From contig RDXM01000086.1 in the NCBI GenBank assembly GCA_004292595.1, positions 1 through 64,000 on the forward strand: DNA of 64,000 nucleotides, written 5' to 3'. This DNA comes from Candidatus Kapaibacterium sp. GTDB lineage: Bacteria; Bacteroidota; Ignavibacteria; Kapaibacteriales; UBA4661. Position 1 is the first letter of the stretch. Each line of letters opens with the position of its first letter. Made by a program: the position numbers and the translations under genes. The notes under the pieces were generated by a model. The model worked only from the letters and a program-made list of their open reading frames with translations. It made no database searches and had not been told where the DNA came from. This document shows positions 18,701 to 39,700 of this stretch, in pieces.

Positions 18701-21700
18701 CGGGACTGCAGCCGATAGCTATGTCCACATTGCCATCGTTATTGAAATCACCCGTCGCAACATTCCCTTGAAGAGCAGGAACGCCTACGGGCGCAAGTGG
18801 GGTAAAAACGCCTCCTGCTCCGCCCAAGAACACGGCATAACCCCTTGTGCCGCCTTCGTTAGTAACAACAATATCAAGTCGTCCATCATTATTAAAATCT
18901 GCTGTTGCCGCCGCACGAGGACTTGTCCCAACCGTAAAACGTTGCTGTTCCACAAAAAATGCCTGTCCGCCCGTTACATTCGTCCGAAATTGCCGCACGT
19001 ATCCGCCGAGATTGGTCAGCCCTGCACTTGTAACAGGCACAAAACGGTCATTCTTGACGGCATTGGTCTGAAAGTTAGGAATGCTAACACTCACAAGCTC
19101 GTTTGGATGAAACCGATTTGCCGACGATGCTCCTGTAAGATTATTCGGCGTAAATTCTGGCATATTTGTTCCCACACCCATCCACATTCCGCCCGCACCA
19201 ATGCGGCTGCGCCCGCCCGTCATGTTGCCGAAAATGCGTATTGGTCCGCTTCCACCAGAAAGTGCATCTACAAGCGTTGCCGTTCCAGTGGTCATTGCGC
19301 TTGAAAACGTCTGGCTAATAAGGACACTTGAACGATCGACATTCTGAGCATGGATGGTCGGTGCAAGGGCGGTTGTTACTGGTGGCTGTTCATTGCGCAG
19401 GACTGCCACGTAGGGAAAGGCTGCACCGATGTTGTAGCCAGCAAGCGCGTCCAAATCGCCGTCTTGGTCAATGTCGCAGAGCGCAAGCACGTGTGCGCTG
19501 GGGTTCACCAGACTTGTGCTACCGCTATTGCTTGCGCCTGGGGCAAACGCCCCGCCACCAATATTGCGAAACCACGTCAGGTGCGATGCGCTGCCTGCTG
19601 CCTGCGGATTTGTAGCGATAATATCAAGGCTTCCATTTCCATCAATATCACCAAAATCTAGCCCGCCTGTTGTTGCGGCAAATCCATTTGGCAATGAAAA
19701 AGACACTGGCGCGATAAATGCCGTTCCAGCATTATTCAGTGCAAGATGCACGGACGTAGCACCAGCATTTTGAACAAGAGCAGCCACATCAGTAAAGCCA
19801 TCATTATTCAAGTCGCCGACAGCAATATGAGAATATGCACCGATGGGATTGAAGGGCGCAAGACCTTGATTAAACCTGCCTCCGCCGTCGTTGATGTAAA
19901 TAAATGCCGAATTAGGAGTCCCCAGTGCAAGGTCTAATGCGCCATCGCGGTTAAAATCGCCTGTGGCGATTGCGCTCGGCACTCCGGGCAGTGCTGTGGT
20001 CGAATGCAGGGACAAACTAAAAGTGGGAAAGTTATTCCGATATATTTGCAATTCATCGGGAGCAGTGCGAATAAGCGCAACATCTATATCGCCGTCGCCA
20101 TCGAAATCGCCCGTCGAAATTTTTTGCCCACCCGTTACGCCAATACCTGTGGCGAAAGGAATTGCACTCAAGTTTCCAGGCGTACTGGTGTTGCGGTGGA
20201 TATAAACCTGTCCTGCGTCAATGTACACCCAATCTGGCAAGCCGTCATTGCTCATATCGGCAGCTTTCAGGTCGAGAATTGCGGTCGAACCTACATTCAG
20301 CCCCTCATTCATGGTTGCGGTTTGGGCAATATTACCACGCCCGTAGTTGCGGCGCACTATTACGGCATTTGCACCAACATTGGACGAAGCAGCAATATCA
20401 ATATACCCGTCGCCATCGTAATCTGCTGGAGCGATTGCTGTTACGTTGCCCAGCATAGCACCATTGTTTATTGTTGCGTAGGTGGACAGCACAAAGTTTA
20501 CGCCGCCCGCAGGCGCAGTTGTGGCTGTTCGGAAACTGCCGACAAAGGGAATTGCTCGCCCTTGAGGTGCGCCAGTGATGTTATTCAGAAATGGCTTATT
20601 TTCTGGATTCGTACTCACGCCATCGCCCAGCGTTGCGCCTGTCGTTATCGTATATTCAATGCGCTCGCCGCGCTGGTAGGGCACCGTCGGCGTGAAACTC
20701 GGCATCGTCCCGCCCGCGTACGTTCCCACCACTCTCAGCCCCGTCATTCCGCCAAAAGAACGGAAGTTGGTGGCGGTGGGAAGGTTCACTGCTTGGCTGA
20801 AGGTTGGTACGATTGCTTGCGTGGGTGTACCGTTATTTGCATCAAGTGGTGGAGCGACGGCGGTAAGTGTGGGGAGATTCTGATTAAAAATGAGAACACG
20901 ATTTCCAGATTGCGAAACGATAAGTCTCCCTGCATGAAAAGCGAGTGCGCTTGGTGTCTGTCCAATAGCACGAGAGGTAATGCCAGCATTTGTCTGAAAA
21001 TCATACTGCCCTAAAACAAAATTGGCAGGTTGATTACCCGTAATTATGCTTGCAGCATTACTAAATACCAGAACGCGGAAGTTATTTCTGTCCGCAACGT
21101 ATAAATCTTGTGTTGCAGGGTCAATGGTAATCCCAAGCGGTAGATTCATGCGGTTTTGAAGGAGACCAGTTCCACTACCCAAAAAATTAACTTGACCAAT
21201 CACAACATTCGCATTATTAACCGTAGGGGGTGGCATCAACACCATATGAGCAGCATTAAACCGCACTACTCTATTATTGGTGCGGTCAGCAACGTATAAC
21301 GCTCCACCTGTACCGATGGCAAGTCCAGCAGGGTTATTGAATGTATTGGGTGTTGTTCCGCTAACGGCAGTAGTGTATGACGTTTGCCCCAAAACTCTTT
21401 CTGCCATTGCTCCCACAACAGGCAGCACAGCAAAATCGTATCGAAGGACACGATTATTACCGAAATCGCTGATGTATAATTTACTATTGGCAGCATCAAA
21501 GGCAATTCCGTGTGGTGCTGAAAGACCATCTTGGGTTGTCGCAGCAGCATTGGAAGTAAAATTCACTTGACCAATAACATAATCGGCGGTAGGATTGGCT
21601 GTAGCAGTATGAGCAGCTGGATACCGTACAACACGATGATTTTGGGAATCGACAATCCACAGGTTGCTATTTTCTACTATGATATTGAGTGGCTCATTCA

Positions 21701-22055
21701 ACGTTTGTGATGTGACTGTACCGCCACGATTCGGTAGGAATCCCATTAAATCCATCTGCCCAAATGCAACCTCTGGTGTTGGTTGATTCGAGGTAATTGG
21801 TAGATAAGCATACCGCAGTACTCGATGGTTGCTGCGGTCGGCGACATAGATTTTGTTGTTCGGAACGTCAATTGCAACGCCATCAGCAAAGTTTAGTCCT
21901 AACGTTATGTTTGGATTATTGGCACCATTGCTAATGAAATCTGGTTGCCCGATAACCCACGTCGCAGGCTGCCCATTCACCCACGTTTGCGCAGACAGCA
22001 CCGTAGGCGCAAGGACGCAGACACAGCATAACAGAAGTGTAGAAAAGCGTTTCAT
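6717..22055 (-). CDS. Giant 1: 5112-aa secreted multi-propeller protein with T9SS sorting domain
   Basis: The signal peptide is residues 1-23 (ends L-S-A-Q). Domains in order: six NHL repeats (~23-392); six tandem units, each a Big_5-like Ig domain with a V/I-F-G-N/M-M-T-G-x-R motif (~125-150 aa) plus a block of exactly seven FG-GAP/VCBS repeats (~350-370 aa), ~393-3357; two unrecognised beta domains (~3358-3612); five IPT/TIG domains (~3613-4020); a leucine-rich repeat block with 'NLSNNxLxGxIP' units (~4024-4440); an Ig-like domain (~4455-4540, Y-Q-W ... Y-E-C-R-I); an FN3-like domain (~4552-4650); ASH/HYDIN-like domains (~4650-4860); a possible cohesin-like domain (~4860-5000); and a C-terminal sorting domain (~5028-5112, 'RPNPVKDVAEI ... 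GTYFLVL'). The FG-GAP repeats carry DxDxDG calcium loops. Probably a surface or secreted adhesin-like protein; ligand unknown. The frame is intact throughout. Confidence 0.93.
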   Translation of the reverse strand: MKRFSTLLLCCVCVLAPTVLSAQTWVNGQPATWVIGQPDFISNGANNPNITLGLNFADGVAIDVPNNKIYVADRSNHRVLRYAYLPITSNQPTPEVAFGQMDLMGFLPNRGGTVTSQTLNEPLNIIVENSNLWIVDSQNHRVVRYPAAHTATANPTADYVIGQVNFTSNAAATTQDGLSAPHGIAFDAANSKLYISDFGNNRVLRYDFAVLPVVGAMAERVLGQTSYTTAVSGTTPNTFNNPAGLAIGTGGALYVADRTNNRVVRFNAAHMVLMPPPTVNNANVVIGQVNFLGSGTGLLQNRMNLPLGITIDPATQDLYVADRNNFRVLVFSNAASIITGNQPANFVLGQYDFQTNAGITSRAIGQTPSALAFHAGRLIVSQSGNRVLIFNQNLPTLTAVAPPLDANNGTPTQAIVPTFSQAVNLPTATNFRSFGGMTGLRVVGTYAGGTMPSFTPTVPYQRGERIEYTITTGATLGDGVSTNPENKPFLNNITGAPQGRAIPFVGSFRTATTAPAGGVNFVLSTYATINNGAMLGNVTAIAPADYDGDGYIDIAASSNVGANAVIVRRNYGRGNIAQTATMNEGLNVGSTAILDLKAADMSNDGLPDWVYIDAGQVYIHRNTSTPGNLSAIPFATGIGVTGGQKISTGDFDGDGDIDVALIRTAPDELQIYRNNFPTFSLSLHSTTALPGVPSAIATGDFNRDGALDLALGTPNSAFIYINDGGGRFNQGLAPFNPIGAYSHIAVGDLNNDGFTDVAALVQNAGATSVHLALNNAGTAFIAPVSFSLPNGFAATTGGLDFGDIDGNGSLDIIATNPQAAGSASHLTWFRNIGGGAFAPGASNSGSTSLVNPSAHVLALCDIDQDGDLDALAGYNIGAAFPYVAVLRNEQPPVTTALAPTIHAQNVDRSSVLISQTFSSAMTTGTATLVDALSGGSGPIRIFGNMTGGRSRIGAGGMWMGVGTNMPEFTPNNLTGASSANRFHPNELVSVSIPNFQTNAVKNDRFVPVTSAGLTNLGGYVRQFRTNVTGGQAFFVEQQRFTVGTSPRAAATADFNNDGRLDIVVTNEGGTRGYAVFLGGAGGVFTPLAPVGVPALQGNVATGDFNNDGNVDIAIGCSPDVRVFLGMGTGAFGSAISLNTGGLNYSLCVGDFNGDGALDVLASNNGGSVRVFLNNGSAVFTPLAAVPTAGAALSIKCGDIDRDSDLDAILVHPAGNLITILRNDGLGNFSIAQTITLTDPYDVEIGDLSGDAFPDFAVTQYSANQVSIFINNATGPVNFYPTAPSSSLATGTNPSSVVFGNYNGDMFSDLITTNEGSNNISVFTGNGTGVFVPFSNAATGAAPRSWSAAGDFDNDGDIDFVTTNWGANSISILINARPPRINPLVPPGNAASYQRDLVPQRNSHTQVFGAFPLRVRFDQAVTSATASFPNVLPPSPLAVTPGAIRIHGSMTGHRSTPAAQGTWNYLAAANTAEYIPPTGNPFRAGETVMVTVTNAQASTPGGQVFSTSPTVYAFTVAPSGGTGRFVDSRRWDDAAFAGGVVFGDFDNNGRIDMIQSSSNGLNMRLQTGTAPTQFTDPATNIYAGGFIAHCITGDFDSDGAVDIAFIDNAGNIQVRRNISAAFGTTLVSFNPGLVGLIRLAPADFDGDGDLDIATIADAGGVLRVYLNNGNGTAFTQVFNAGLVTAKSILAADVDNDGDMDVVTANNTNVEIWLGQGAVGGLNSLLAAPTPAYQYAIANVTELAAGDFNNDGYLDLVAASDNTADLTVLRNSGIGNGQFTVLGTYATGSSGNAPLVGDFDGDGALDIVSFKSNAIDAKVLHFKGNNAAVFTLTNSSPLVESTNIVAATRLFPAMADLDGDGDLDLGIPLGTGRRTAILFNHEPELKVQATSPLVNASSVALPVAITTIFNQNVTTSTASLPPTGPLRVFGNMTGGRSRAGGGSWSSPAPPINSATFTANPLGSSAIRYYPGEKVEFIASTSTYIQGTPGVANTIPMTTGTVRQFWTKAGTGPATFFQHFQSPIPRPNAASFVQSADFNNDGRIDFVTSEDNTTLRIYLGNGNGTFTAGATVTGAFGTPANGRVVLADMNNDGFTDIINTDAIGSAQIRIFQNSGTGTFPTQMTGSPITASFAGVRGLAVGDADGNGALDLAVTYNATNQVGVFFNPGNGNISGSEQRYTQPGGGGREESALADMDNDGDLDWVITNGSANSVSLRLNSGTGNFDVQAAGSPYPTTITNPTNIQLMDINNDSRIDAVVGGPNANVNIFVNTGMPTIFPAAATLTIPTTSNRPLLGDFDGDARQDITVLQRTPGSFVVGLGNNSGTFPALSAPNQVGTANLNQAIADVDNDGDLDILIAADNTLQIWLNATQPRFVCNSAVDCGPPTFTPNIFPQRNVNTAVAGSLFTWQFTEPMTTASVTATASFPQNPPAPSGAGGSIRVFGNMAASRTPLNSALGSWAFNAAITTATLTSGRALFAGEQIMVSVTQAQSPSGIAVRPYVYSFRARPTSGPAQFYPRSGSLNFLYTAGAGPRSIAFGDFNADNVIDWVAVNQFNNTIVTALGDNTGAFTPLVANSTRATVGTFPVQVLTADVNNDGRLDAVALNSGGGANGIAVFLNTLGTGQLNTPVTYATGANPQSIALGDVDADADLDIVSIENSGGAVIRYNNGSGVFATNSATFPTGTGQGFLRLADVDNDGDLDMVIAQSVGGVTVRLNDGLGNFNGTAVGSPYAGAGAISVDMGDIDNDTDLDMIVTLATGSLVLRTNNGIASGNFSTIAAMFPISVSPQHAVFTDVNGDTNLDIVATSAPVAGQAGALTVMLGNGAGAFGNAANAPFGTLADPRGFALADVDGDGDLDVAVAHQGVTSTVQILLNATQPRLVCNGATDCGAPSYTRAISPQRNLNAAPNQTAMTWQFTEQITAATYTAIGSAQGPIRIFGMMTGQRNIASGGAWTYAMAATTATFNPARRFLNGEEVMVTMTSAQASLARVNVRPFVYSYRTRAGVGPAIFGNQEFSPYASGTNPQDVALGDVNGDGRVDMLAATGIGIVRRLNDGTGNFNANSTTIPTIGSPVAIALGDADNDGDLDIAVAGGGNVSVLLNNGMGAFTTMMGFPLAVGGNMVDIAWGDMNADGDLDLVLADRAASQIRLVNNNIDANAFSIGAATGIAGTPSALALSDFDNDGDLDVAAANNGGTSGLAIALNDGNGNLSLMLGTPIATPSTPEGIAAGDIDNDGDNDIALVTTTPDNALIYSNLMGGFTLSGTYAVGTSPSDVGLGDVDGDGDLDLVSINNGANTATIWKNDGTGVLNQTASGSPYGLGMQPLGVALADLDGDGDLDFVSANSASNTTSVMMNQGNAGLAFSLTNSGFINLFNTNTPVVVSRAQTPFTIGSFLGKTNLSNTSATLQYSIQAAAGGNAQFSIIGSSQGTINNASSISTVATFVWRNAPVRGGVTTAVIVVSPTFVGLLNATQITVTVIADPAFPLALAFSQSSSTGTQGVNFGAFNQGQLLSASGRPFNLAFGAWNGWNELAATNAIVRLRAFNTQGQEGNFTLSGTPTLLSGLANTATGVFTNLRVAWLNAPETAVSTQVTLRLVSESSAALSATNVTLTLLREPLEAQIISFSPSTGATGTVVTVRGTGLTSLTAAAIAGVPVQSFTVNSTNQVSLVVAAGTSGTIVLTNNFGSGESLGVFNFVQYPNLLGIQPLSACAGQVLTITGDNIADVQQVFVGNAPAASFRVNERGQVEAVVPQNADNGVVTLQNRAGTAVLNVMLVQTPAINGISPDILGTGGTLTVTGRNLNVVQAAQISPNTLHILSQSATTLTLRVSTQAQVISAPLRLESGSGCFVLSTQAISIAAPPTLTAVNITSLEVGQTLLLTGTNFVQGMTVSLGGVSAASVDVISPTEVRLSFSTNALVVAATGAALQATTPFGTATLQNTLIRLLPTTIIPANIDFTPDTGALGSTVTITGRGFVGITEVSFGGTPAQSFRVESPSRIVAIVGAGASGIVRVRSTTGTGESMRVFAYLTQQQLDSLAAVAFYRATNGATWTTSANWLVPQQALSRWFGLTVAQSGANAGRIIGINLSGNNVSTVPQNGAFSAISVTNAIVALSQMTALQTVNLSNNTLQGTLGSVVAGLRSVRSLNLANTGLSGRIPVELGTLDSLEIVKLDSNRLDGSLSDVFCTVFGQSMRNYGLRELRVASNRLTGDIPPCIVQFTRLQVLRLEDNQFTGRIPEGINRLANLREFVVARNGLSGELPRSLDSTTFVVFAGKQTSETNALTQLELFDVSSNQLSGTIPNGIAQSRSMKTLLLNNNQFSGRLPQTLPALATLETFNAAQNQLSGELWDNVGAMRSLRAFSVRNNRLGGIIPSSFVQIPSLERLELDNNSFVGNVPTELARMASLRVLGLSQNRLRTMPSLNALRQTLDSTRLERNMLTFESIETSVQVRNVTYSPQDSVGEASSRFVLVGSPINLNFSVGGAFNRYQWFRNGMAITDAQESPEFTLTRAALASNSGVYECRITNSLARDLTLFARALMIRVDTAEPTNEAVLANQVAAPRLVFPYPAGRNMPYALPLTWRAAIGAVVHEAQFSLLPDFSVLASNATISSTTLSVSGLRPGTRYYWRVRGIGAEGQRSQWSSDFFTTGVGDKPMQMTSIDFGRVSLADSVDGEALVVNFSNVAQTLQEIGLEDSNLSFTILDDVRQVIIPAEKYLTVRVRFAPRSTGVKLATTVLRYNESLRPERIDSVVNILQGTGVALKLSNVDFGIVRAGGTTLKSALLINTSPRPVTVQKARTRDSDRIFSVQGYLSNREFIIQALDTLLLLVRCSPPNAGRKFNGMLVLGDNDSVRAEIRAEARAFKEGDVVMRFGVRPKEQQDSVAPGGLVDVELFGKIDMGRTSDLIRAFDNLLQYRAQFNMDPNVLMLDTTERRAQQRRYIGVPNRVFVNIPAATFDITTLRNISETKREFVMTSMKSRSVSGSTATTMLEVEQAEWSASAPNLFVEAPINGTFTAKPCVAGGVRLTTTAKPNSVAIARPNPVKDVAEIHYALREDGNIAFAMVDMSGKQVTVLAEGYAEVGEYSMMLDVKAIPSGTYFLVLQTQSGVVRRRVEVVK
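11985..20880 (-). repeat. Six tandem [Big_5-like + seven FG-GAP repeat] units in giant 1
   Basis: The propeller blocks lie at about 19395-20500, 17935-18975, 16415-17500, 14955-16045, 13445-14537 and 11985-13053. Each holds seven loops of the form D-x-D/N-x-D/N-G-x-x-D, such as 'DFDGDGDIDVA' and 'DLDGDGDLDFV', 42 in all. The intervening Big_5-like domains each contain a 'FGNMTGGRS'-like motif. Seven FG-GAP repeats are what the integrin-alpha type propeller needs. Confidence 0.88.
20880..21990 (-). repeat. Six NHL repeats (one six-bladed propeller) at the head of giant 1
   Basis: Six copies of a pattern like G-x-A-x-D ... L-Y-V-A-D-x-x-N-x-R-V-L/V-R/V-x, separated by about 55-65 residues. Examples are 'KIYVADRSNHRVLRY', 'ALYVADRTNNRVVRF' and 'DLYVADRNNFRVLVF'. 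Six NHL units make one closed propeller in the known family. Confidence 0.85.
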
Positions 22056-22113: not shown

Positions 22114-23001
22114 TTAGAGCATAATAATACTGCTTTCGCTCAAGCCCGTTAGTTTGGCAATCTCCGTCGGCGGCATTCCTGATTGTTTCATATTTTTTGC
22201 AACGAGAAGAATGCCTTTTTCCATGCCTTTTTCCATGCCTTTTTCCATGCCTTTTTCCATGCCTCTCGCTTCCCCCAGTATGGTTGCTTGCTCAATCGCA
22301 TAATCCATGGTGTTCTTCAAATCGCGGTAGATTTTGAGCGATTGCTCGTAGGAATCACGCTGCGCATCATTAAACTGCGCTAACTCTGCTGTGTGAAAAG
22401 CGTGTTCAAACAGCGAAGATTGCAAGGGCGCGGGAATCTCCTGAAAGTCAGGTAAATGCTTGAGAAAATACAGCCATTTATCAGTATTTGTCCAAAGCTC
22501 TGCTTCGGTTTTCGTAAAATTTGGCATCTCAAGATAGACAAATGTTAGCTTGTCGTAGAAGACCCGATTTTGCTGGTTCTTGAGCTGAACGGTATGCAGA
22601 TATTCCGTACTTCCCTTATCTTCATCAAAAACAAAATCCAATACGCCAACGCAATAGACCGCCGCCAACTCAAAGTTCCAATTCCCACGCTCGCCCTGCT
22701 CTCGAATGGGAAAGGTGGAATAATACACACTGCGTTCTTTGAAATAATTCTGCTTTGCTTTTTGCAATTCCACGATGAAGCGTTCGCCCGTATCGCTCGT
22801 ACAGGTAATATCCATGATAGCGCGGCGTTCTGTAGCACTGCTGCTCATGTACTCATTACGCGTATATTGCAAATCTCTTATACGATGCTTCTCGGGTAAG
22901 AGGGCATTCAAAAAGTCTATAAGCAAGGATTTCTGCGACTCTTCACCAAAGAGCTTTTTGAAACCGAAATCGGTAAAGGGATTGAGATAACGATCTTTCA
23001 T
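22114..23001 (-). CDS. Rpn-family recombination-promoting nuclease / putative transposase (PD-(D/E)XK)
   Basis: 295 aa. The N-terminus ('DRYLNPFTDFGFKKLFGEE') and the core D64 ... E78-L-Q80 fit the Rpn/PDDEXK_2 family, with the variant E-x-Q in place of E-x-K. RpnA of E. coli is a DNA endonuclease that promotes RecA-independent recombination; activity here is inferred from family only. Near the C-terminus, residues ~246-263 are four copies of G-M-E-K encoded by a near-perfect 12-bp tandem repeat (22211-22264), followed by a short HTH-like tail ('PPTEIAKLTGLSESSI'). The gene lies 58 bases upstream of giant 1 on the same strand, so read-through into giant 1 is possible. Confidence 0.88.
   Translation of the reverse strand: MKDRYLNPFTDFGFKKLFGEESQKSLLIDFLNALLPEKHRIRDLQYTRNEYMSSSATERRAIMDITCTSDTGERFIVELQKAKQNYFKERSVYYSTFPIREQGERGNWNFELAAVYCVGVLDFVFDEDKGSTEYLHTVQLKNQQNRVFYDKLTFVYLEMPNFTKTEAELWTNTDKWLYFLKHLPDFQEIPAPLQSSLFEHAFHTAELAQFNDAQRDSYEQSLKIYRDLKNTMDYAIEQATILGEARGMEKGMEKGMEKGMEKGILLVAKNMKQSGMPPTEIAKLTGLSESSIIML
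22211..22264 (-). repeat. 12-bp tandem repeat (x4.5) within the Rpn gene
   Basis: On the plus strand ATGCCTTTTTCC is repeated four times plus a half copy, encoding G-M-E-K units. The period is a multiple of three, so copy-number change alters only the linker length and keeps the frame. Confidence 0.95.
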
Positions 23002-24457: not shown

Positions 24458-24720
24458 TTAATGTCTATTCATACTACTTCAGAGCATGATGCGCTTCCAA
24501 CGAATAAGTAGTATATTGCTCTTTGAAAGGACAGTACTATTTATGCTGCTTATGCGTCTTTTTGAATGTTTATCCGTATAATCTTTATTTTCTCCTTTTT
24601 GCGTGTTTTATGAAAATTTTACCACCCACTCTTCACTTGCAGACCCCACGAATACTTGCTGCATTCTGTTCTGGCGTTATCAAAGCCTTTCGTATTTATA
24701 CCTTTTCTGTAAATCCTCAT
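24458..24720. other. Leader region of giant 2
   Basis: The giant 2 frame is open from 24523, but the first 66 codons lack a plausible signal peptide in the right place and are AT-rich. I treat this as 5' leader. ATGs at 24523 and 24610 are alternative starts. No Shine-Dalgarno sequence is seen before any of them. Confidence 0.5.
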
Positions 24721-27700
24721 ATGACTATCATTTCCCACATTACTATTCTTCGCCGTAACAGTGCTTCTACTCATCTCTTTCGGCTGATTGTATCGGTATT
24801 ATTTCTTGTTTCTTCAGCCAGTTTGTATGCTCAACCACCCACCGTTACAGGCTTCGCCACAACAAGTGCCTACGCGCTGCAAGCCGTAACGGTGAACGGC
24901 ACAAACTTCACGGGCGCGACGCAAGTACAGTTCGGTGGCGTTACCTCGCCGTGGTTCGAGGTTGTCTCGGCAACGCAAATACGCGCTGTTGTGCCAATTG
25001 GCGGCGCAAGTGGGAACGTCAGTGTTACCACTGGCGCGGGAACGGGTTCGCTTGCGGGCTTTACCTTCACCGCAACACCGCCAGTGTCCACGCTTGCGGG
25101 CGATGGTACTCTGGGTTTTCGTGATGCTGCGGGCGCAGGGGCGCAGTTTAATGCCCCGGTTGGTGTTGCGTTCTACGCGGGCAATATGTTTGTTGCCGAT
25201 GGCGATAATAATCGTGTTCGTAGAATTACGCCGACGGGCGTGGTTACGACCTTTGCCGGTAGTGGCGCTTTTGTATCAGTAGATGGCACAGGTGCAGGCG
25301 CATCGTTTGCAGCACCGCACGGTATTGCCGCAGACGCTTCGGGCAATCTCTTTGTAGCAGATTATGTCACCCATCGCATACGTGTTATCAGCCCCGGCGG
25401 TGCCGTTACAACTCTGGCAGGAGGTACAGCAGGTTGGAATGATGCTACGGGCGCGGCGGCGCAGTTTAACGGTCCTGTCGGAGTGGCTTTTGCTGGCGGC
25501 ATTGTTTATGTGAGTGATTTAATTGGGCATCGTATTCGCAAAATTACCTACCCGGGCGGCGTAGTAACAACGCTGGCAGGAAGTGGCGGTATGGGTTCAG
25601 CTGATGGAACAGGCTTGGCGGCACAGTTCAATAATCCTCGCGGAATCGCGGTGGATGCAGCAGGCAACGTGTACGTGGCAGATCAAAGCAACAACCGCAT
25701 TCGCAAAATTACGCCCGCAGGTGTCGTTACAACCTTGGCAGGAAGCGGCGCGGCGGGCTTTGCTGATGGAACAGGCTTGGCGGCACAATTTAACATCCCG
25801 ACGGGCATCGCGGTGGATGCTTCTGGTAATCTTTACGTCAGCGATGCTGGCAATACGCGTATTCGCTTCGTTACGCCCGCAGGTGTTGTTACCACTCTCG
25901 CCGGAAGCGGTACAGCGGGATTTGTGGATGGTACTCTGGCAGGAGGGAGGTTTAATGGGGCGATGGAAAGTCTTGCTTTTGATGCCTCGAATAACCTTTT
26001 TGTCGTGGATAGGGGCAATAATGCTATACGCCGCGTTGTTATGCCACCGCCGACGGTTACCAGCTTTACCCCAACAAGTGCCTACGCACTGCAAGCCGTG
26101 ACAATAAATGGCACAAACTTTTCAGGCGCAACACAAGTACAGTTCGGTGGCGTTACTTCGTCGTGGTTCGAGGTCGTCTCGGCAACGCAGATACGCGCCG
26201 TTGTGCCGATTGGAGGCGCAAGCGGTAGCGTAACAGTTACCACAGGCGCAGGACCGGGTTCGCTTGCGGGCTTCACCATGACCGCCGCACCTGCGGTTTC
26301 CACAGTTGCGGGTGATGGGACCTTGAGTTTTCGTGATGCTGTGGGTGCAGGAGCGCAGTTCAATTCTCCCTGCCATATCGTACGTGACGGCGCAGGAAAC
26401 GTGTACATTGCCGACCGCTTCAACAACCGTATTCGCAGAATGACTCCGTCAGGAGTGGTTACAACCCTTGCAGGAAGCGGCACGGCAGGCGGTATGAATG
26501 GAACAGGCACGGCGGCGGAGTTTAACCGCCCGTACGGCATTGCTATCAATGCTGCCGGAACAATACTCTACGTTGCGGAGGCTGTCGGGCATCGTATTCG
26601 GCAAATTGTTATTGCTACGGGCGTTGTAACGACGATTGCAGGAAGCGGCACTGCGGGCTATGCCGATGGAACAGGCGTTGCAGCGCAATTTAATGAACCG
26701 ATTGGTTTGTGTACGGAAGGCGCAGGAAACCTCATTGTTGCCGAGCAGTGGAATCATCGTATTCGCCGCGTGGTGATTGCTTCGGGCGTTGTTACAACCG
26801 TTGCTGGAAACGGTACGGCGGGATTTGCTGATGGATTGGCAGCGACGGCACAATTTAATCAGCCGCGCTCACCTGTTATTGATGCCGCAGGGAATATTTT
26901 CATTGCTGATTATGAAGGTCATCGTATTCGCAAAATTACTCCAAGTGGCATTGTTACGACGGTTACGGGCAATGGCACGGCGGGAAATGTGGACGGCGGA
27001 CCTGCCACAGCACAGTTGAATAATCCGAATCATTTGATACTGGATGCTGTTGGGAATCTCTACTTTGCTTCGGGGAATGCCTTGACGGTGCGCATTGCGT
27101 CTCCTGCTGGAGTGGTAACAACCATCACTGGAACGGGTACATCAGGATTTCTTGATGGAGCGGTGAACGTCGCAGAATTGAGGTTTGTTGCCGGAATACT
27201 CCAAGAAGCATCCGGTTCGTTTTTGGTAACGGACGAAGGAAATGCTTGCATCCGCCGCATTGTTCTTCCACCGCCGACGGTTACGAGCTTTGCAGCCACC
27301 ACAGGCTATCCGGGCTTGGGCGTAATTATCAACGGTACAAACCTTGCAACTGTTACACAAGTGCGCTTCGGCGGCGTGGTTTCGCCGTCCTTTACGGTCA
27401 TTTCCAACACGCAAATCGTCGCAGTCGTGCCTGCGGGCGGCGCGTCGGGAAATGTGCAAGTAACCAATCCGGGCGGAAGCGGTTCGCTGGGCGGATTTAC
27501 TTTTACGGCGACCATTCCGCCAGTGTCGCAATTTGCTGGAAATGGCGCAGGTATTGGCTTTGCCGATGGTCAGCAAGGTGCAGCGCGGTTTAATCAGCCG
27601 TGCGGCATTGCATTCAACAGCACAGGAGATATGTTTGTCAGTGATATTTTCAATTTTTGCATTCGCCGCATCACACCTGCTGGCGTGGTAACAACCTTTG

Positions 27701-30700
27701 CAGGAAGCGGCGTTGCGGGTTTTGCCGATGGCACTGGCACAGCGGCGCAGTTTAGTTCACCTCACGGCGTGGTTGTGGATGGTTCAAACAATGTTCTTGT
27801 AGCGGATTATCTCAATCACCGTATTCGCTCCATTACTCCGTTAGGCGTGGTTACGACGTTTGCGGGCAGCGGTACTGCCGGAACAGCCGATGGAACGGGC
27901 GTAGCTGCTCAGTTGAACTCTCCGATAGCAATGGTTTTTTCAGGCGGTTTCCTTTATGTGAGCGACCACTTCAATCATGCCATTCGCCGCATTACCTATC
28001 CAGGTGGTGTGGTTACGACCTTAGCGGGAAATGGAACGATTGGAAACGTTGATGGTACGGGCGCAGCAGCCCGTTTTAATCGTCCTGCGGGCATTGTTGC
28101 GAATGCGACGGGAGATTTGTTTGTTACAGACCAATTCAACCATACCATCCGCCGAATTACCCCTGCGGGCGTGGTAACGACATTTGTAGGAAGCGGTGTG
28201 GCGGGCTTTGCTGATGGAACAGGCGTGGCGGCACAGTTTAATTTCCCACGTGGAATCACGATTGATGCGGCTGGAAATCTCTATGTGAGCGAGCAGACTG
28301 GTAATCGTATTCGCCTCATTACGCCTGCGGGCGTGGTTACGACGCTCGTCGGCACAGGCACGGCGGGACTTGTAGATGGCACTCAGCTTTCCGCGCAAAT
28401 AAGTGGACCCGAAATGCTTCAGTTTAATTCAGCAGGCGTGTTGTTCCTTGCCGACAGGGGCAACAATGCTATTCGCCGCATTCTCCCTGCATCGCCCGTC
28501 GTTACGAGCTTTAACGCCACAACGGGTTATCCAGGCTTGGGAATTATTATCAATGGTGCGAATTTTTCTGCCGCTACTCAGGTGCAGTTTGGCGGAGTAA
28601 ATTCGCCGTCGTTTACGATTATTTCTCCGTCGCAAATCGTTGCTGCCGTACCTATGGGCGGTGCATCGGGCAGTGTAAGCGTTACTGCGCCGAGCGGGAC
28701 GGGTTCGCTGCCGGGATTTACCTTTACTGCGGTTATTCCGCCCGTTTCGACGTTTGCGGGAAACGGTGCTGGAGCAGGCTTTGCCGATGCAGAGCAAGGT
28801 GCGGCGCGGTTTAATTCTCCATGCCACATCGTGCGCGATGGAGCGGGGAATGTGTACATTGCTGACCGAGTGAATCATCGTATTCGCAGGATGACACTGG
28901 GCGGAGTTGTTACAACACTTGCCGGAAGTGGTGTTTCTGGTGGTTTGGATGGCACAGGCACGGCGGCGCAGTTCAACGGTCCCTACGGTATTGCTATCAA
29001 CGCTGCGGGAACTGTCCTCTATGTTGTGGAATTGCATCGTATTCGTCAGATTGTCATAGCGACGGGAGTTGTAACAACCCTCGCAGGAAGCGGTACGGCG
29101 GGTTTTGCCGATGGCACGGGAGCTGCGGCTCAATTTAGCAATCCTGTCGGGGTGTGTCTTGACGGCGCAGGAAATCTTTTTGTCAGCGATGTCAATAATC
29201 ATCGTATTCGTCAGATTGTGATTGCTACGGGAGTCGTTTCAACCATTGCAGGAAGCGGGGCTGTCGGATTTGCTGATGGATTGAATGCTACTGCTCAATT
29301 TAACCGCCCCGTTGGTCTTGCTCGTGATGCCGCAGGCAATATCTATGTTGGAGATTATGACAATCACCGTATTCGTAAAATCACTCCGGGCGGCGTTGTT
29401 ACGACGCTGTGCGGCAACGGCACGGCGGGAAATGTGGATGGCGGACCCGCAACCGCACAGTTGAATAATCCTAATCAGTTGTGGATGGATGCCGTTGGAA
29501 ACCTCTACGTTGCTTCAGGAAACGGCTATACGGTGCGCATTGTTTCACCGACGGGCGTTGCATCAACAATCACTGGAACGGGAGCGAACGGTTTCCTTGA
29601 TGGTGCGGTGAATGCAGCACAATTTGCGTTTCTTGCGGGAATACTTCAAGAAGCATCTGGTTCGCTCTTGGTAACGGACGAAGGAAATAATCGCATTCGC
29701 CGCATCGTTCTTCCCGCGCCGACGGTTACGAGTTTCAACGCCACAACGGGTTATCCGGGCTTGGGCGTGATTATCAACGGCACAAACCTTGCCACGGTTA
29801 CGCAAGTTACGTTTGGTGGCGTGGTTTCGCCGTCGTTTACGGTCATTTCCAACACGCAAATCGTCGCAGCCGTGCCTACGGGCGGTGCATCGGGGAATGT
29901 GCAAGTAACCAACCCGGGCGGAAGCGGCTCGCTGGGCGGATTTACCTTTACGGCAGTCATTCCGCCGATTTCTACCTTTGTGGGAAATGCCGCACCTGCG
30001 GGCTTTGCCGACGGTACGCAAGGCGCAGCTAGGTTTAACGCACCTATTGGCATTGCGTTCGATGGCAGTGGCAATATGTTCGTTGGCGACCAGACCAATC
30101 ACCGCATTCGCAAAATCACCTCGACTGGCGTGGTTACGACGCTGGCGGGTAGTGGTATCAGCGGTTGGGCGGATGGCACGGGTGCGGCGGCACAGTTTTC
30201 CAATCCAAGTGGTGTTGCGACGGATGCCGTCGGGAATGTGTATGTTGCTGATTATCTCAACCACCGCATTCGTGTTGTTACTCCTCTAGGTGCCGTTACG
30301 ACGCTGGCGGGAAGCGGCGTTCCGGGTTCTGCGGACGGAACGGGCTTGGCGGCACAGTTCAATGGTCCAGTTGGTATAGCTCGCAGTGGTGGCAATTTGT
30401 ATGTAAGCGATAATCTTGGTCATCGGATTCGCCAAATTACTATCGCGGGCGGCGTGGTTACGACGCTTGCCGGAAGCGGTACGGCGGGTTTTGCGGACGC
30501 AACGGGCACGCTGGCGCAGTTTTCCTCACCCCAAGGTCTTGCTACTGATGCTTTGGGTAATGTCTATGTTGCTGACCACATCAATCAACGCATTCGCAAA
30601 ATCACTTCCGGGGGTGTGGTAACGACGCTGGCGGGAAGCGGTGCTGGTGGCTTTGCTGATGGCACGGGCGCGGCGGCGCAATTTCAAGCACCGCTCGGCG

Positions 30701-33700
30701 TGAGCGTAGATGCGGCGGGCAATGTGTATGTTTCCGATGCCTTTAATGCGCGTGTGCGCCTGATTTCGCCGTTAGGCGCGGTAACAACGCTTGCTGCTTC
30801 TGGTACGATTGGCTTTGTTGATGGTACGCTTGCTGCGGGGCAGTTTGGTAATGGTCTTATGGGCATTGCACTGAATGCAACAAATAGTCTTTTTATTGCC
30901 GATAGAACCAACAACGCCATTCGCAGCGTCGCGCCAAGTATCGCAGTTACGGCGTTCACGCCAACCAGTGCCGGACCGAGTGATCTCGTAACGATTACAG
31001 GTATCAATTTCACAGGAGCAACCCAAGTGCAGTTCGGCGGCATAAATGCTGCTTCTTTCACTGTCGTCAATAACAATACCATCACCGCAACTCCTGCGGC
31101 GGGAGGTGCGACGGGTAGCGTGAGTGTTACTGCGCCCTTGGGAACGGCTTCGCTTGCGGGCTTTACGTTTTTACCGAATACGTTTTACTTCCAATCTGGC
31201 GACGTTGGTGTGCGCACAAATTGGAACTCGCTTGCGGGCGGCGGCGGTGTCGTTCCTACGCCAGCGCAGTGGATGAACAAATCGGGCGACACCTACATTT
31301 TGCAAGTATCAGGCGGATTGATTTCGCCACTCACCGTTGGAAACGGCGTAACCTTCACGCATTCGGGCAGTTCGTCGCTGAGTATGAACGCCGCCATGAC
31401 CATTGCTGCGGGCGGAATCTGCACCATTCCTGCGGGTTCCTCATTTTCCATCAATGGACCAAACACCTTCACCAACAACGGAACCGTGAACGTCAGTGGT
31501 GTTCTGGGCTTGGTCAATACGCCGAGCTATGTCGGAACTGCACCCGTCTATGCGGCTGGTTCGACGCTGGGCTATAACGGCATAGGCAATCAAACCGTCG
31601 GCGTGGAATGGCTTCCCACCATGCCTGCGGGCGCGGCGGTTGTCCTTGCCAAAGCACCTGGAAACACGCTCACACTGCCCGCAAACCGTACCGTGAATGG
31701 CTCGTTTGGTATTGCATCAAGTACGCTCGTACTTGGTGCGAATACGCTCACCTTGAACGGACAAATCCAATTTGGGGCGGGAACGGCACTGCAAGGCGGC
31801 GCAACATCGGGCTTGACTATCGGCGGCACGGGAACAATCACTGGCGCACTCTCGATGACCGCTCCGCAAACTCTTGGTGCAGGGCTGACGCTGAATCGCC
31901 CTGCAACGCTCACACTTGCTTCGGCTCTCACCGCTACGCCGCTCACACTCGGAAGCAGCGGCGGCGTGAACACAGGCGCACTCGCACACACTTTCTTGGT
32001 AACAAGTATTGGTGCGGTTTCTACGCTGAATGTTACGGCGGGCGGCTCGGTTACCCAAGCGGCAAATTATACTGTCAATGGCACAATAGCAGTTGATGGC
32101 GTGTTCGATGCTGGAACAAGCGTCGCAAGCGGCACAGGCGGAATTACGGTTAATGCGGCGGGAATGTTCTCCACCGCGCATCCTGCGGGCTTGGTGGGCG
32201 CACTTACGAACACAGGTGCGAACACGTACAACGGCACGGTGCGCATTCAAGGCGCGACAGTGGGCAATACGGCGGGCTTGAACCTTGTGAATCTCACCAT
32301 AGACCGCGCCACTGCTGTTACGCTACCGCAAAATATCACGATTAACGGCATTTTGAATATTGCCAACACAGGCAATTTCGACCTCGCAGGGCGGCAACTC
32401 TGGCTCAACACTGCCGCCAGCACCAGCACGAGCGCGACAGGCACAATAGACGCAAGCGGCGCGGGTTCGAGTGTGTTGCTCAATGCCGCAACGCTGGACG
32501 GGTCGCACTTCACTGGCGGCGCAATCAGGCGGCTCGACGTGGGTAGCGTTCCGACGCTTTCCAACAGCCTCGCCATTACGGGGCAGTTGAATATGGGGAA
32601 CAACCTCACGCTCGGCGCACCGCACGGACGCTTGTGGCTGCGCTCTGCCGCCACGATAACCGCCGCTGGAACGACCTTTCAAGGCACAAATACCACAAGC
32701 GAAGTGATGATTGACGGCGGCTTCAACGGCGGCACGATGCCGAGCGCGTTTGCAAATCCCTACAATGGCGCAATCACGTTCTTAGGCGCGGAAAACCTGA
32801 CGGGAAATCTCACCATGAGCGCGGCGGCAGGCGCACTCTCGCTTGGTGGAAACGTGAACCTACAAGCCGCATCCACACTGACCTTGAACCAAACCGCCGC
32901 AAATTCGCTCATTGGCACAGCAACGTTGCAAGGCGCGGGTGCAAGTTCGGTGCTTGTGTTTGGCAATGGCTTTAATGCTAGTGTTTTGCCCGCAAACCGT
33001 TTTGCAAATCCACTGAATGCCAATCTCACCACGCCCGGCGGCGCGTCCACGCTCACCGGCGGCAATCTCGCTTTGGGAAGCGCACAAACACTCACGTTGG
33101 GCGGACGCTTGACCACAAGTGCGGCAAATCTGCTCACGGTAACAAACACGGCAACGACTTCGATTGCGGGTGCGAGCGCGACGAATTTTATTGACGGACC
33201 GATTGAACGCCAGCTTTTAGGCGGCATTGCGGCAAATGGCACGACGTACCTCATGCCCATCGGCGAAGGCGCGAATTACCGCCATATGACGCTGCGCGAC
33301 ATCCGCACGGGCGCATCACCACTTGTGCGAGCGACGGTCGTTGCGGGCGGAGCGACTACGCCCGACAATCTCACTATTCTCACACTTCTTTCAGGCAGAA
33401 ACTGGCATTTGGAGCAGGTTTCGGGCGTGTTTACTTCTTCCACGCTGGACTTGACCGAAGGCGGACTTACGCCAACAGATTTGATTGGTATTTCCACCAC
33501 GCAAGCAGGACCGTACGCCAGCATTGGCGGCACTCCGGGCGGCAGTTTTGTGCGCTCGAATGCGCAAGCAGGTCTCGCGGATAGATTTTACGCCATTGCC
33601 GGAACGCCGCCGGGCGCGTTTTTCTACAACGAAACGCTCTTGGGCGATGCCGCCTTGCCAACCTCGTGGAACTCCGTTCCCAACGGAAGCGGTGTACCCG

Positions 33701-36700
33701 CGACCTTGGGTCTGATGACGAGCGGTACGACCTCCTTCACCGTACGAAGCGGCATCACAGCGACGGCGTTGGGCGGTTTTGCGTTTGGTCCAAACGTTAC
33801 GCTCACCCTGCAACCCGCATCAAACCTCACGGTGAATACGGGAACGCTGACCGTGAACGGTACGGCAACTGTCTCTGGTACGCTCGGCATCGGCGATGGC
33901 GCGACGCTGCTCAATAACGGCACAACCACAATTACGGCGACAGGCGCACTGCGGCTTATCGGCAACGGGGCTGTAAGCGGCACGGTGCCTGTCTTTGCGG
34001 CAACAAGCTCTGCACTCGAATACACAGGCACAACACCAAAAACGGCGGGCAGCGAATGGCAAAACCCGCTTCCGTACACGGTTCGCGTGGCAAACGCAGG
34101 TGGGGTGCGGCTTCCAAGCACACGGACTCTTGCAAATACCGCGAATGTGAACATTCAAGCAAATGGCGTTTTGATGATTGGCGACGGGGTGAATGTGGTG
34201 AACGATGGAAATATGTTGGTCGGCGGACTAGGAACGATGCGCCTTGACGGAAACGGTCAGCTTTCGGGCGCGAGCGGCATCACGTACCTTTCCACGTCCA
34301 CGCTGGAATTTAGCAACGCCAGCGCAACACCGAATGTGACGGCGGGCAACAAAGCATTTCCTGCCTCAATGAACGCAAACGTGGTGGTGAACAACGCCGT
34401 AACGCTCACCGAAAGCAAGCAAATAAGCGGCTCCTGGACGGGCTTGGGCGGCAGCGTGAATCTGAATGGCAATACGCTCACGCTGAACAACACAACGTCC
34501 TTCGGCGGAACAAGTTTTGTCAGCAATGCAGCAAGCGGTTTGGTGATTCAGGGAGGCGGCACGGTTACTGGGCTGACGAGCATCACGGGCGGAGCAATCG
34601 GAACGCTGACGATGGCTCGCGCTGGAGAGACGCTCACGAATGCCGCACCAGTGCAGGTTTCCAATACATTGACCTTGCAAAATGGCTTTATTTCCACAAC
34701 ATTGGGAATGATAACGCTCACAAACCCAGCATTGGCGGGGCTTGTGGGCGGTACGGCAACGTCGCACATTATTGGCGGTTTGGAGCGAGCTTTGCCAGCG
34801 AATTTGGCTGCAAGCCCGCTTCAATACCTGTTTCCTGTTGCAAAAAATGGTGCGTATTTGCCCATCGTTTTGACGAATCTCACAACGGGCATGACCGCGC
34901 CCATTCTTCGTGCAGAGCCGTTCACAACAAGCGTTGCGGGTGGAACGCTTGCGGGAGCAGGAAGTCTCAGCCTGAGCGAACATTGGCAAACAACGCTCGT
35001 AAGCGGCTCGTACACAAGCGGCGCAGCAATTCTGACACGCTCGACGCTCAATGCTGGCAACAGCACTGCTTTTGCCTCTGGCATGGGAACAGTGTTCAAT
35101 CCATCGGGCGGAACGCTGGCAGGAATGAACCCGACGGCAACGCTCACAAGCAGCGTGATTACTGGCGCGGGGCGGTTTTCAATTACTTTCCCGTCGTCGG
35201 TCTTGATTGGTGATTTCACTCCGAAGCAAGGGCTTGCTGGCGCGGTCGTAAGCATAACAGGAAGCGGCTTCACAGGCGCGACGGCAGTGCGTTTTGGTGG
35301 CACAAATGCGGCAAGTTTTGTGGTCAATTCTGCCACAAACATTACGGCGACAGTTGGTGCAGGCGCGACGGGCGTGGTGGAAGTTGTAACGCCAACAGGG
35401 ACGGGCATTTCTGATTCGACTTATACTTTTGTCGGAATACCTACGATTGCAGGTTTTACGCCCTCTGGCGGCACAGGCAGAACCACCATCACCCTGAACG
35501 GCTCAAACTTTTTCGGCGTTACCAATGTGCGCATCGGCGGACAGCCCGTGCTGAGTTACACAGTCATTTCTCCCACACAAATCAGCATTCTTGCGGCAAC
35601 GGGCGCAAGCGGCTCGGTGCAAGTAACGGCTACGGGCGGCATTGCTACGTCATCGGCAGCGTTTCAGGCATTGCCTTCTATCACATCCTTCACACCAGCA
35701 AACGGCGGTACTGGGACGATAGTGAGCATTTTTGGGACGAATTTTACGGGCGCGTCGGCAGTACGTTTTGGCGGAGAAAACGCGCTCACCTTCAGCATTA
35801 TTTCGCCCACAAGAATAGACGCAATCACCACATCTTTTGCGCTTTCTGGTTCGATAACTGTTGTTACAACCACTGGCACTGCGGTTTCTTCGCAAGCATT
35901 TATTGTTGGTGCAGCACCTGTAACGACGGCAAGTGTGATTACACCAAATGTGGCTGTCGCAACGACGAATATTCGCGTAACAGGAAGCGGTTTTGTGAAA
36001 TTGGGCAATCGCCTGAATCTGTATAATGGTTCAATGCTTGTTGCGAATGACATTTTGTTTGAAGTCTCAGACGCGACGCACCTTACCTTTACCGTGCCTC
36101 AGCTTACCTTGACGGGCGATAATATCCCGCTCAGTGTGAAGCTCGAAGGCGTAACAACAAACACGCTCGGCACGCTTATTTTTCTTCAAACACCCGTCAT
36201 TACTGGCTTTTTTGATAGTACAAATACGAAGGCAATCACTCAAGGAATGCGCGGCGATAGCATCACGATTCGCGGTCAGTATTTTACGAATGTTACGGAT
36301 GTGAGCTTTGGTGGTACTTCTGCGACGTTTGGCGTACCGAATGTGCCGACCGAACTCCGCGTTCGTGTGCCACAGACCGCGCAATATGGTTTTGATATTG
36401 TTGCGGTGAATGCTCGTGGTGTGCGGGTTTCGGCACCAGAGCGGTGGTTTACGATTCCGCCGCGTCCTGTCATCACGGCGCAATCGCTGGATAGCGGCGA
36501 AGTTGGCGAAACGGTGCGCCTCGTGGGCAAGAACTTTTTCCCCGATAGCAAAGTCTTTTTCAATGGCGTATCAGCCGCATCAGTACAGGTGATTTCGACG
36601 ACAAACGTGGTGGCGATTGTTCCCGCCGGCGCAAGAGATGGGTTTATTACCCTGAATAATGTGTACGATGTTACTACTGGAACACAAATTTTCCGCATCA

Positions 36701-39700
36701 TTCAGCCCGCAACCCGCATTACGGCGTTCTCGCCACAGCGCGGTGGCGTGGGAACGGCTGTGCGCCTCACGGGTATTCTCTTCGATACAACGGGCAGTAC
36801 AGTCGTCTCCTTCAACGGTTTGCCCGCACAAACACGAGTTTCTTCAACCACCGATGCCATTGCGATTGTGCCTGCGGGCGTGAATGTTGGCGCGGCAAGC
36901 GTCAGTATCACCGGTAGAGGCGGCACATTTACTTCAACGCAAGCATTTATCGTGCTTCCCGTGCCTGTCATTACCACCATTGACCCCATTTCCGCAGGTG
37001 CGGACGAAATGATAACGCTCACAGGGCGCAATTTTACGGATGTTACAACGGTAACTATCAATGGTCGCGTTTTGCAAAATATGGTCGTGGTTTCGGATGG
37101 AAATATTACCGCGAGTTTGGCGAATGTTCCCGTCGGACTCGGCACGGTAACAGCCTTCAGCCCAGGTGGGCAGGGAAGTTACAATGTGCAGTTTGAGCTT
37201 TTGCCGCCAAGCGTTGCCAATGCGCCGCGCATTGAATCGTTCTCGCCCGCTTTTGGTCCAGCGGGAACGCGCATTGTTGTTCGCGGGCGCAACTTCTTCA
37301 CGATAGCATCGGCGCGGGTTGGTGGCGTATTTGGGACAGTCCAGCAGATTTCTACAACGGAAGTTATCGTGATTGTCGGGCGCGGCGCGACGGGCGCAAT
37401 TACGCTCACAAATGAATTTGGTTCGCGCGGAAGCCGCACACCGTTCCGTTTCCAAACGCCGTTGGAATTGGATTCGATTGCGCTTGTGGCATTTTACAAT
37501 GCCCACCGAGCCAGTAATACTGCGCTTCCGGGCGCGAATTGGCTCACGCTGAACCCAGTGCAAACTTGGCAGGGAATCACTGTCGGACGTGCTGGCGAGG
37601 ACGACCGTATTTTGGGCATAACACTCACCAACGCAAGTATTCGTGCGGCTTCTGGGCTTGTAACCCAAGAATTGGTGAAAATTTCCGAACTACGCAGCTT
37701 GAACCTCAGCAATAACGCGCTCTCTGGCGATTTCCCTGTGCAGCTTTTCCAACGGAGCAAGCTCACGGAACTCCGCCTTGCAAACAATAATTTCACAGGT
37801 GCACTTCCCGCCGAACTTACGCAACTCACTGCGCTGGAAGTCCTCGACCTTCGGCAGAATCAGCTTTCGGGGAATATTTCCACAAGACTCGTTTCTCTGC
37901 CGCGTTTGCGTGTGCTACTTTTGTCGAGCAATCGTTTGACGGGAAGCCTTCCAACGCCGATAAATACTGCGCTTGCAGGTAAAACTGCCGCGCAAGCACA
38001 CTCTGTATCGGTCTTGGAAACGCTGGACGCAAGCAATAATCAGCTTTCTGGCGCGATTCCCAGCGCGATAAACACCTATTTCCAGCTTCGCTTTTTGGGT
38101 GTGGCGAATAACAATTTGACGGGCGAAATCCCGCGCAGCATTGGTGAATGCTTGATTTTGGAGAATCTTGCTCTGAATAATAATCGTTTGAGCGGCGCAG
38201 TGCCAAGCGAGATTCTGCGTTGTACGCGCTTGGAGCGCGTGAATCTTGCCAACAACGCATTGACGCTTGTTCCAAATCTTACACCGCTCAATCGCCGCTT
38301 GAAAGCGGTGTTTGTGGAAAATAATCGGTTAGATTTTGGTTCGCTTGAGCCAAATATCGCGCTGGACACGCTTCGCTACGTGCCGCAAGACACGCTGGAG
38401 GTTGCAGAGCGCAGTGTTATTGGCGTTGTGGGTGCGCCACTTCACATATCGCTCAGGGTAGGCGGTGCGAGCAATCGTTTTGCGTGGGAACGTGATGGAA
38501 TGAGCATTGACGAGCTTCCGACGGTATTCGCGCTGTCGGACACGGGGCGGTATGTGTGCCGCATCACGAATACTCGTGTGCCGAATTTGACCTTGCTTAC
38601 GCGCCCAATTACGGTGCTTGGTCGCATTCCGCTTCCGCCAAACACCGCACCACAACTGGTTTCTCCGCCGAATAACGCCAACGGAACACCAACGGATGTA
38701 CGAACCGAATGGACGGGCGTTGCCGATGCAGCCGCATATGATATTGAAATTGCCACAACGCAAGATTTTACGAGCGGCGTAACACGTTTGCGCACGACAA
38801 ATCTCCACACGACTGCCGAAGGTTTACGAAATTTACAACGCTATTTCTGGCGTGTCCGTGCGGTCAATCCCGGTGGTGCAGGTCCGTGGTCGGCGACGAG
38901 TATGTTTGTAACGGTGCGTCCGGGAGCAGTCTTGGCGGCGATTGCGGAAGTCTTTCCCAAAACGCCGATTGCCGATGTGAGCTTCCGCCGCATCGTGCTG
39001 ACCAATCTCCTTTCGCAGGCAATTCGCCTTGATAGTCTGCGTTTTAGCGAGTCGGGAAATGGCACAGAAAATAGCTTTGAAACCCGCTCTAGTTTTAACG
39101 CGCTGACTTTTGAAGGCAAGCAAGAACGCGCGGTGAATCTTGCGTTTTCACCAAAATCTGTTGGAAATAAGCAAGGAACAATCACGGCGTACTGCACCGT
39201 TCTGAACACGCAAACGCAAGAAGTGGAGCGCTTTGAGCAGGTTTTGACGGGACGCGCCACCGCGCTGAAGGCGATTCCTGTGGAGTTTGATACGGTGCTG
39301 GCTGGAAAACCAACGATTTCGTCTGCATTGCTTGTCAATCGTGGTCGCACTCCGATTCAGGTGAATGCGGTACAATTCCTGAACAGCACTAATGGTCTTG
39401 TTTCGGGCGTGTTTTCGTTTCAAGGCGCGGATGGTCGTTCATTGTTTGCTGCTCCCATTCCGAAAGGGCGCGAGATAACGCTTTTGGGCGGCGACACGCT
39501 GAACATGACGTTGCGCTGCGAGCCCAAACTGCTGGGAAATCAAACGGCATTGCTGAATTGGGAAGCCACTGGTGAAGGGGCAGATACGATAGACGTTCCC
39601 GTTACAGCCTTTGTGCGCCCTCCAGAGCCATCGGATGTGGAAGTGCGCTTCGCTCTTCGCCCCGTGAACGAGCGCGGAGAAAAGCAGGATAGCATCGCAC

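Follow-up and report, generated by a model that had tools for sequence, protein, structure and literature searches.

Mosaic bacterial surface proteins evolve concertedly, their repeat domains recombining within the gene and between strains. The described systems closest to the present locus are the IPT/TIG-NHL proteins of Bacteroides (PDB 3hrp, 3tc9 = BT_3476, 4hw6, and 3kya), single-unit chains of ∼400–500 residues whose depositors' names include "auxiliary nutrient binding protein", and the bacterial teneurin-like protein (PDB 9ifo and 9pt5) with its TEN_NHL propeller, for which an NHL propeller plus a YD-repeat shell is diagnostic. Cases described in PMC9218822 and PMC6805158 include β-propellers newly amplified from single blades within one propeller. 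A tandem array of TIG-NHL units at the head of a giant protein from Candidatus Kapaibacterium sp., on which literature searches found nothing, is reported here. One unit of this array matches the Bacteroides proteins in fold (Foldseek E 1e-17 to 3e-20), with a weak match in sequence, and the top sequence match of its NHL part is the teneurin-like protein/TEN_NHL propeller (E 1e-65).

Results

The window, that is, the whole stretch of DNA analysed, comprises 64,000 nucleotides (contig RDXM01000086.1, positions 1 to 64,000). On its plus strand, a frame of 5286 open codons (24523–40383) opens at TTG 24523; the start of the giant gene is likely ATG 24610 ("MKIL"), which is common to its ortholog in the closest species. 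The gene (24610–40383, +) encodes a signal peptide, the TIG-NHL array, a repeat-rich body, further TIG domains, LRR, and a T9SS sorting domain. Its head consists of five TIG-NHL units (24835–30936; first nucleotides 24835, 26047, 27271, 28492, and 29716), followed by a sixth TIG (30937–31185, +), which is distinct and position-conserved (W_6, G5_6, G7_6, and G4_7, where W denotes the window and G the ortholog genomes). The unit lengths of 404, 408, 407, 408, and 407 codons given in a first-pass annotation were reproduced exactly, and all motifs quoted there were found in the array. Pfam matched both TIG and NHL, and also TEN_NHL, in the array units, and the order of IPT/TIG followed by an NHL propeller was recovered by Pfam, structure model, and Foldseek. 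Each unit is predicted to fold as one TIG plus one six-bladed NHL propeller. The C-terminus carries a type A sorting domain (TIGR04183, 32.4 bits, cut-off 23; also PF18962), and SprA, the T9SS component searched, is encoded in the source genome with a score over the cut-off. By this combination, the giant is, judged from sequence, a type-IX-secreted (T9SS) protein. Its score against ScyF (NF035926) was 324.4 bits, under the curated cut-off of 350.

Four giants neighbour one another in the window. The others are a 5112-aa giant with many FG-GAP repeats, NHL, and LRR (6717–22055, −), a 4476-aa giant with NHL, TIG, LRR, and a T9SS sorting domain (41159–54589, −), and a T9SS giant with LRR and a DUF5122 propeller (56950–63981, −). 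In G5 and G7, giants similar to the second of these share a contig with the ortholog. A PD-(D/E)XK family transposase-like gene (22114–23001, −) sits between two giants, and one ORF (1–2523, +) links the C-terminal portion of an RND permease (ACR_tran) with outer-membrane efflux (OEP) domains and is followed by an HlyD-type gene.

Whole-gene orthologs were found in three genomes of the same genus, G5 (L076), G7 (L077), and G4 (L078), and a more distant one in G1 (L079); the ortholog genomes are MAGs of Ignavibacteria/Candidatus Kapaibacterium, one per species, and G5 is the closest species to the source (rpoB 97.7% identical). An additional N-terminal propeller precedes five units in G5 and G7 and six units in G4, and the window has five units without this propeller, which gives propeller numbers of 6 (G5), 6 (G7), 7 (G4), and 5 (window). 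In the window, the first TIG directly follows the signal peptide (24610–24835), where L076, L077, and L078 have a whole extra NHL propeller. In G1, the slot between two TIGs (L079:1696–3126) is taken by a 477-residue segment of other repeats (WAKxxGG/DFDPG), not NHL and without a Pfam match. Further TIG-NHL proteins are encoded in the source genome on contigs C34, C63, C102, and C117; on the last of these, L023 (∼3750 aa) has a single NHL propeller and then a very long TIG run.

The different grouping of TIGs and propellers that the first-pass annotation had noticed was matched by DNA identities and five-taxon AU tests. Among TIGs 1–5, identity was 82.7% for 1-2, 86.9% for 3-5, 70.6% for 3-4, and 73.8% for 4-5, with the remaining pairs at 60–62%. 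Among the propellers, which alternate in type (ABABA), it was 74.6% for 2-4, 61–64% for 1-3, 1-5, and 3-5, and 56–60% for A-B pairs. When all 15 topologies were compared by AU, separately for each set, the best trees were 12|35|4 for TIG and 13|24|5 for NHL. The TIG data accepted only 1+2 trees (p-AU 0.06–0.83) and rejected every 2+4 grouping (≤2e-6), and the NHL data kept only 2+4 trees and rejected every 1+2 grouping (p ≤2e-5). The separate phylogenies for which the annotation had called thus conflict, each set rejecting the key split of the other. Recombination might be mimicked here by rate differences or by convergence between short, similar repeats, as the TIG segments in the trees comprise only 252 columns and NHL blades resemble one another. 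However, the conflict runs in both directions (TIG 1-2 83% but NHL 1-2 57%; NHL 2-4 75% but TIG 2-4 60%) and so cannot be explained by a rate difference; AU rejection is likewise bidirectional, the breaks are sharp, and the cross-species excess described below extends to synonymous sites. An origin of the conflict in rates or convergence is, hence, barely credible.

With the orthologs included, the TIG tree contained supported position groups for TIG4, TIG6, and (without the window) TIG2; TIG1 of the four species came together with weak support, and in both the window and G5, TIG3 and TIG5 were intermixed. The window TIG2 sat with TIG1, and its placement in the TIG2 group was rejected (p 0.0097). 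As read from this tree, most TIGs keep their position across species, and the window TIG2 became TIG1-like. Within the window, TIG2 and TIG1 and, in part, TIG3/TIG5 resembled each other more than they did their positional orthologs; this was not so for TIG4, TIG6, and propellers 2 and 3. The first-pass annotation had placed TIGs 3, 4, and 5 in one group. TIG3 and TIG5 are indeed alike, but TIG4 is of a distinct position-specific type common to the orthologs, and a W_3+W_4+W_5 clade was rejected (p 7e-50).

The NHL tree joined W_2 with G5_2, W_3 with G5_3, W_1 with G4_1 and G4_3, and W_5 with G7_5 and G4_6 (each 100/100). Unit 1 (24835–26046, +) accordingly pairs a TIG1-type TIG with an A-type propeller related to G4_1/G4_3, switching at codon columns 82–85, and unit 2 (26047–27270, +) pairs a TIG converted to the TIG1 type (columns 1–74) with a propeller orthologous to G5_2 (90% DNA). 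Both unit 3 (27271–28491, +) and unit 5 (29716–30936, +) have a "c"-type TIG, the former with a propeller orthologous to G5_3 at ordinary (vertical) divergence, the latter with one related to G7_5/G4_6. The unit 4 propeller lies in the B group, outside W_2+G5_2. From the ABABA order, the first-pass annotation had concluded that a two-propeller pair was duplicated; on one such reading, the tandem duplication would be recent and only the TIGs homogenised later. Window propellers 2 and 4 are mutually nearest (75%), propellers 1, 3, and 5 have common indel patterns, and positions 2 and 4 of G7 are likewise occupied by B-type propellers, all of which would suit a pair duplication. With the orthologs included, however, sisterhood of W_2 and W_4 was rejected (p-AU 8e-6), as was a W_1+W_3+W_5 clade (p-AU 4e-43): propeller 2 is nearer to G5_2 than to propeller 4, and for each of 1, 3, and 5 the relative elsewhere is a different one. 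Moreover, G5, despite being the closest species, does not read ABABA, and unit 4 has the TIG and closing strand of the position-4 orthologs. A recent pair duplication is therefore rejected as very improbable, and ABABA is a mosaic state of the source species, the order having arisen, according to these trees, via separate replacements. A pair duplication dating back to the base of the genus could still underlie the B-type propellers found at these two positions in G7. For W_1, the order of events may have included a deletion or a replacement. The homogenisation proposed earlier holds for the conversion of TIG2 and the likeness of TIG3 and TIG5, but the propellers were mainly replaced from other positions or species.

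MaxChi-type breaks were located at codon columns 108–110 in W_4, 74–77 in W_2, 82–85 in W_1, 110 in G4_3, and 105–107 in G4_1; for each, 0 of 2000 permutations was as large, compared with 62–67 of 2000 for two controls. Their clustering results in part from the choice of units by TIG/NHL conflict, and only the unguided copying HMM is free of that choice. The HMM was noisy over units without close relatives (G5_4, G5_5, G7_4, and G4_5) and was rerun with stricter penalties and a window statistic. Its switches peaked at codons 105–113 under all three switch penalties, with the densest 9-codon window starting at column 105 in each case; this window held 8, 6, and 5 units versus permutation maxima of 8, 5, and 4 (60 permutations), which were, hence, exceeded in two of the three settings. 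Overall, breaks recur at two places, codon columns ∼70–85 and 105–112, with junctions at the TIG/propeller border, often directly past the propeller closing strand. Such recurrence would also be expected from dedicated cassette switching, in which silent copies and site-specific recombination shuffle the propellers. Yet all 41 propeller matches in the source's own (incomplete) MAG lie in long open frames with 0 silent fragments, so that silent partial copies, as in silent-cassette antigenic variation, were not found among them, and the window ORFs that were scanned with Pfam included no recognisable recombinase or reverse transcriptase. A dedicated switching system is thus very improbable.

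The junction is best resolved in unit 4 (28492–29715, +), which comprises a TIG4 ("d"-type) domain and the position-4 closing (velcro) strand, then a position-2-type B propeller. Here, the ancestry of the TIG side reaches through the first 24 propeller codons, that is, residues 85–108 (28744–28815, +), which cover closing strand D (85–89) and a loop N-terminal to strand A of blade 1. The model of unit 4 (pLDDT 95.8, pTM 0.92) contains the TIG strands, the strand at 85–89, and blades from residue 110. Since blade 6 by itself contributes only three strands, strand 85–89 is read as its closing strand; that it completes blade 6 is suggested by strand order, not by coordinates. The unit 4 break would, consequently, fall between the closing strand and blade 1.

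Behind the array, the backbone of the window and G5 was 74.5% identical in DNA, and the other pairs among the four were at 62–66%. At fourfold sites, backbone identity was 42–57% and that of rpoB 51–55%, except for the window and G5 (76%). Several propellers surpassed the backbone values: G4_0/G5_0 reached 91% and G4_6/G7_5 84% (remainder of the gene in the same pairs, 42–43%; rpoB, 53–54%), W_1/G4_1 reached 68%, and W_5/G4_6 reached 66%, in each case more than any backbone window of equal size. The similarity of W_3 and G5_3 was at backbone level, and that of W_2 and G5_2 (81%) was barely over rpoB (76%) and, hence, needs no transfer. The cross-species tracts are sharp (92–100% identity within ∼60% surroundings). 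The tract shared by G4 and G5 starts near the signal peptide and ends at the next TIG, with 86–100% (mostly 92–100%) identity, flanked by 35–54% before and 58–68% after, and that shared by G4 and G7 is a TIG-propeller-TIG segment with 52–66% outside. Both are best read, from these identities, as transfer between species. Collapsed or chimeric repeats from assembly or binning have to be considered, as every genome is a short-read MAG and the arrays are repetitive. However, the longest exact repeat of the array is 34 bp, which makes repeat collapse unlikely, the same architecture with diverged sequence occurs on contigs of separate records, and the shared tracts are 92–99% identical, not 100%, within intact reading frames. 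Such an artefact is, thus, highly improbable.

Over 21 units, mean entropy peaked in strand A (1.79), followed by the BC loops (1.72), and the smallest means were those of strand D (0.49) and the TIGs (0.75). Replacements were concentrated at loop positions in some close pairs (odds ratio 8.6 for W_2/G5_2 and 7.4 for G4_1/G4_3) and not in others; positive selection at these positions is not claimed, as pooled dN/dS was 0.25 there versus 0.16 elsewhere.

Discussion

In the comparison of one MAG per species, trees conflict, breakpoints lie at the TIG/propeller border, propeller number varies, and tracts are shared across species. Very probably, the head is a row of TIGs and six-bladed NHL propellers that evolves by homologous recombination among its units and with the arrays of related species, ABABA being a mosaic and not the product of one pair duplication. 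The separate TIG and propeller histories attributed to recombination in the first-pass annotation are, thereby, supported by trees, breakpoints, and AU tests; the duplicated pair, as a recent event, is not. Recent pair duplication, rate artefact, repeat collapse, and silent cassettes were considered and rejected.

As to mechanism, most TIGs would hold their position over species time, and propellers would be replaced as whole cassettes, with or without their own closing strand. Ordinary homologous recombination probably performs the exchange, and selection for foldable products may keep the junctions at domain borders. As amino acid variability peaks in propeller strand A and the BC loops and is least in strand D and the TIGs, the benefit could be that a surface rod gains new ligand specificities. 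The giant is most likely such a rod, bearing binding heads that can be exchanged, its ligand and function being inferred, and the names that depositors gave to the relatives hint at possible nutrient or glycan binding. More tentatively, and with no great confidence, position-fixed TIGs might serve as homology docks, so that whole propellers, split from or together with their closing strand, are exchanged as modular cassettes within the gene and across species, re-arming the rod, the favoured junction lying next to the closing strand.

The array is a clear natural example of a giant bacterial surface protein whose spacers and heads have had separate histories and meet at junctions compatible with the fold. 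Were this general, arrays of this kind would amount to a natural collection of exchangeable propellers, and the "cut beside the closing strand" rule would be directly testable. It is also a warning that whole-gene comparison cannot call orthology for such genes.

Compared with the single-unit Bacteroides proteins, the giant T9SS substrate bears five units in a tandem row, and propellers are exchanged among them. Unlike the teneurin-like protein, the giant has several propellers with TIG spacers, and the YD/Rhs family was not found in Pfam scans of its gene. Propeller repeats are also amplified in the single-blade cases included in PMC9218822 and PMC6805158, but the piece exchanged here is the whole propeller, the blades being well diverged.

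What sets the array apart from other mosaic surface proteins is that the histories of spacer and head can be separated, with breaks beside the closing strand of the propeller.
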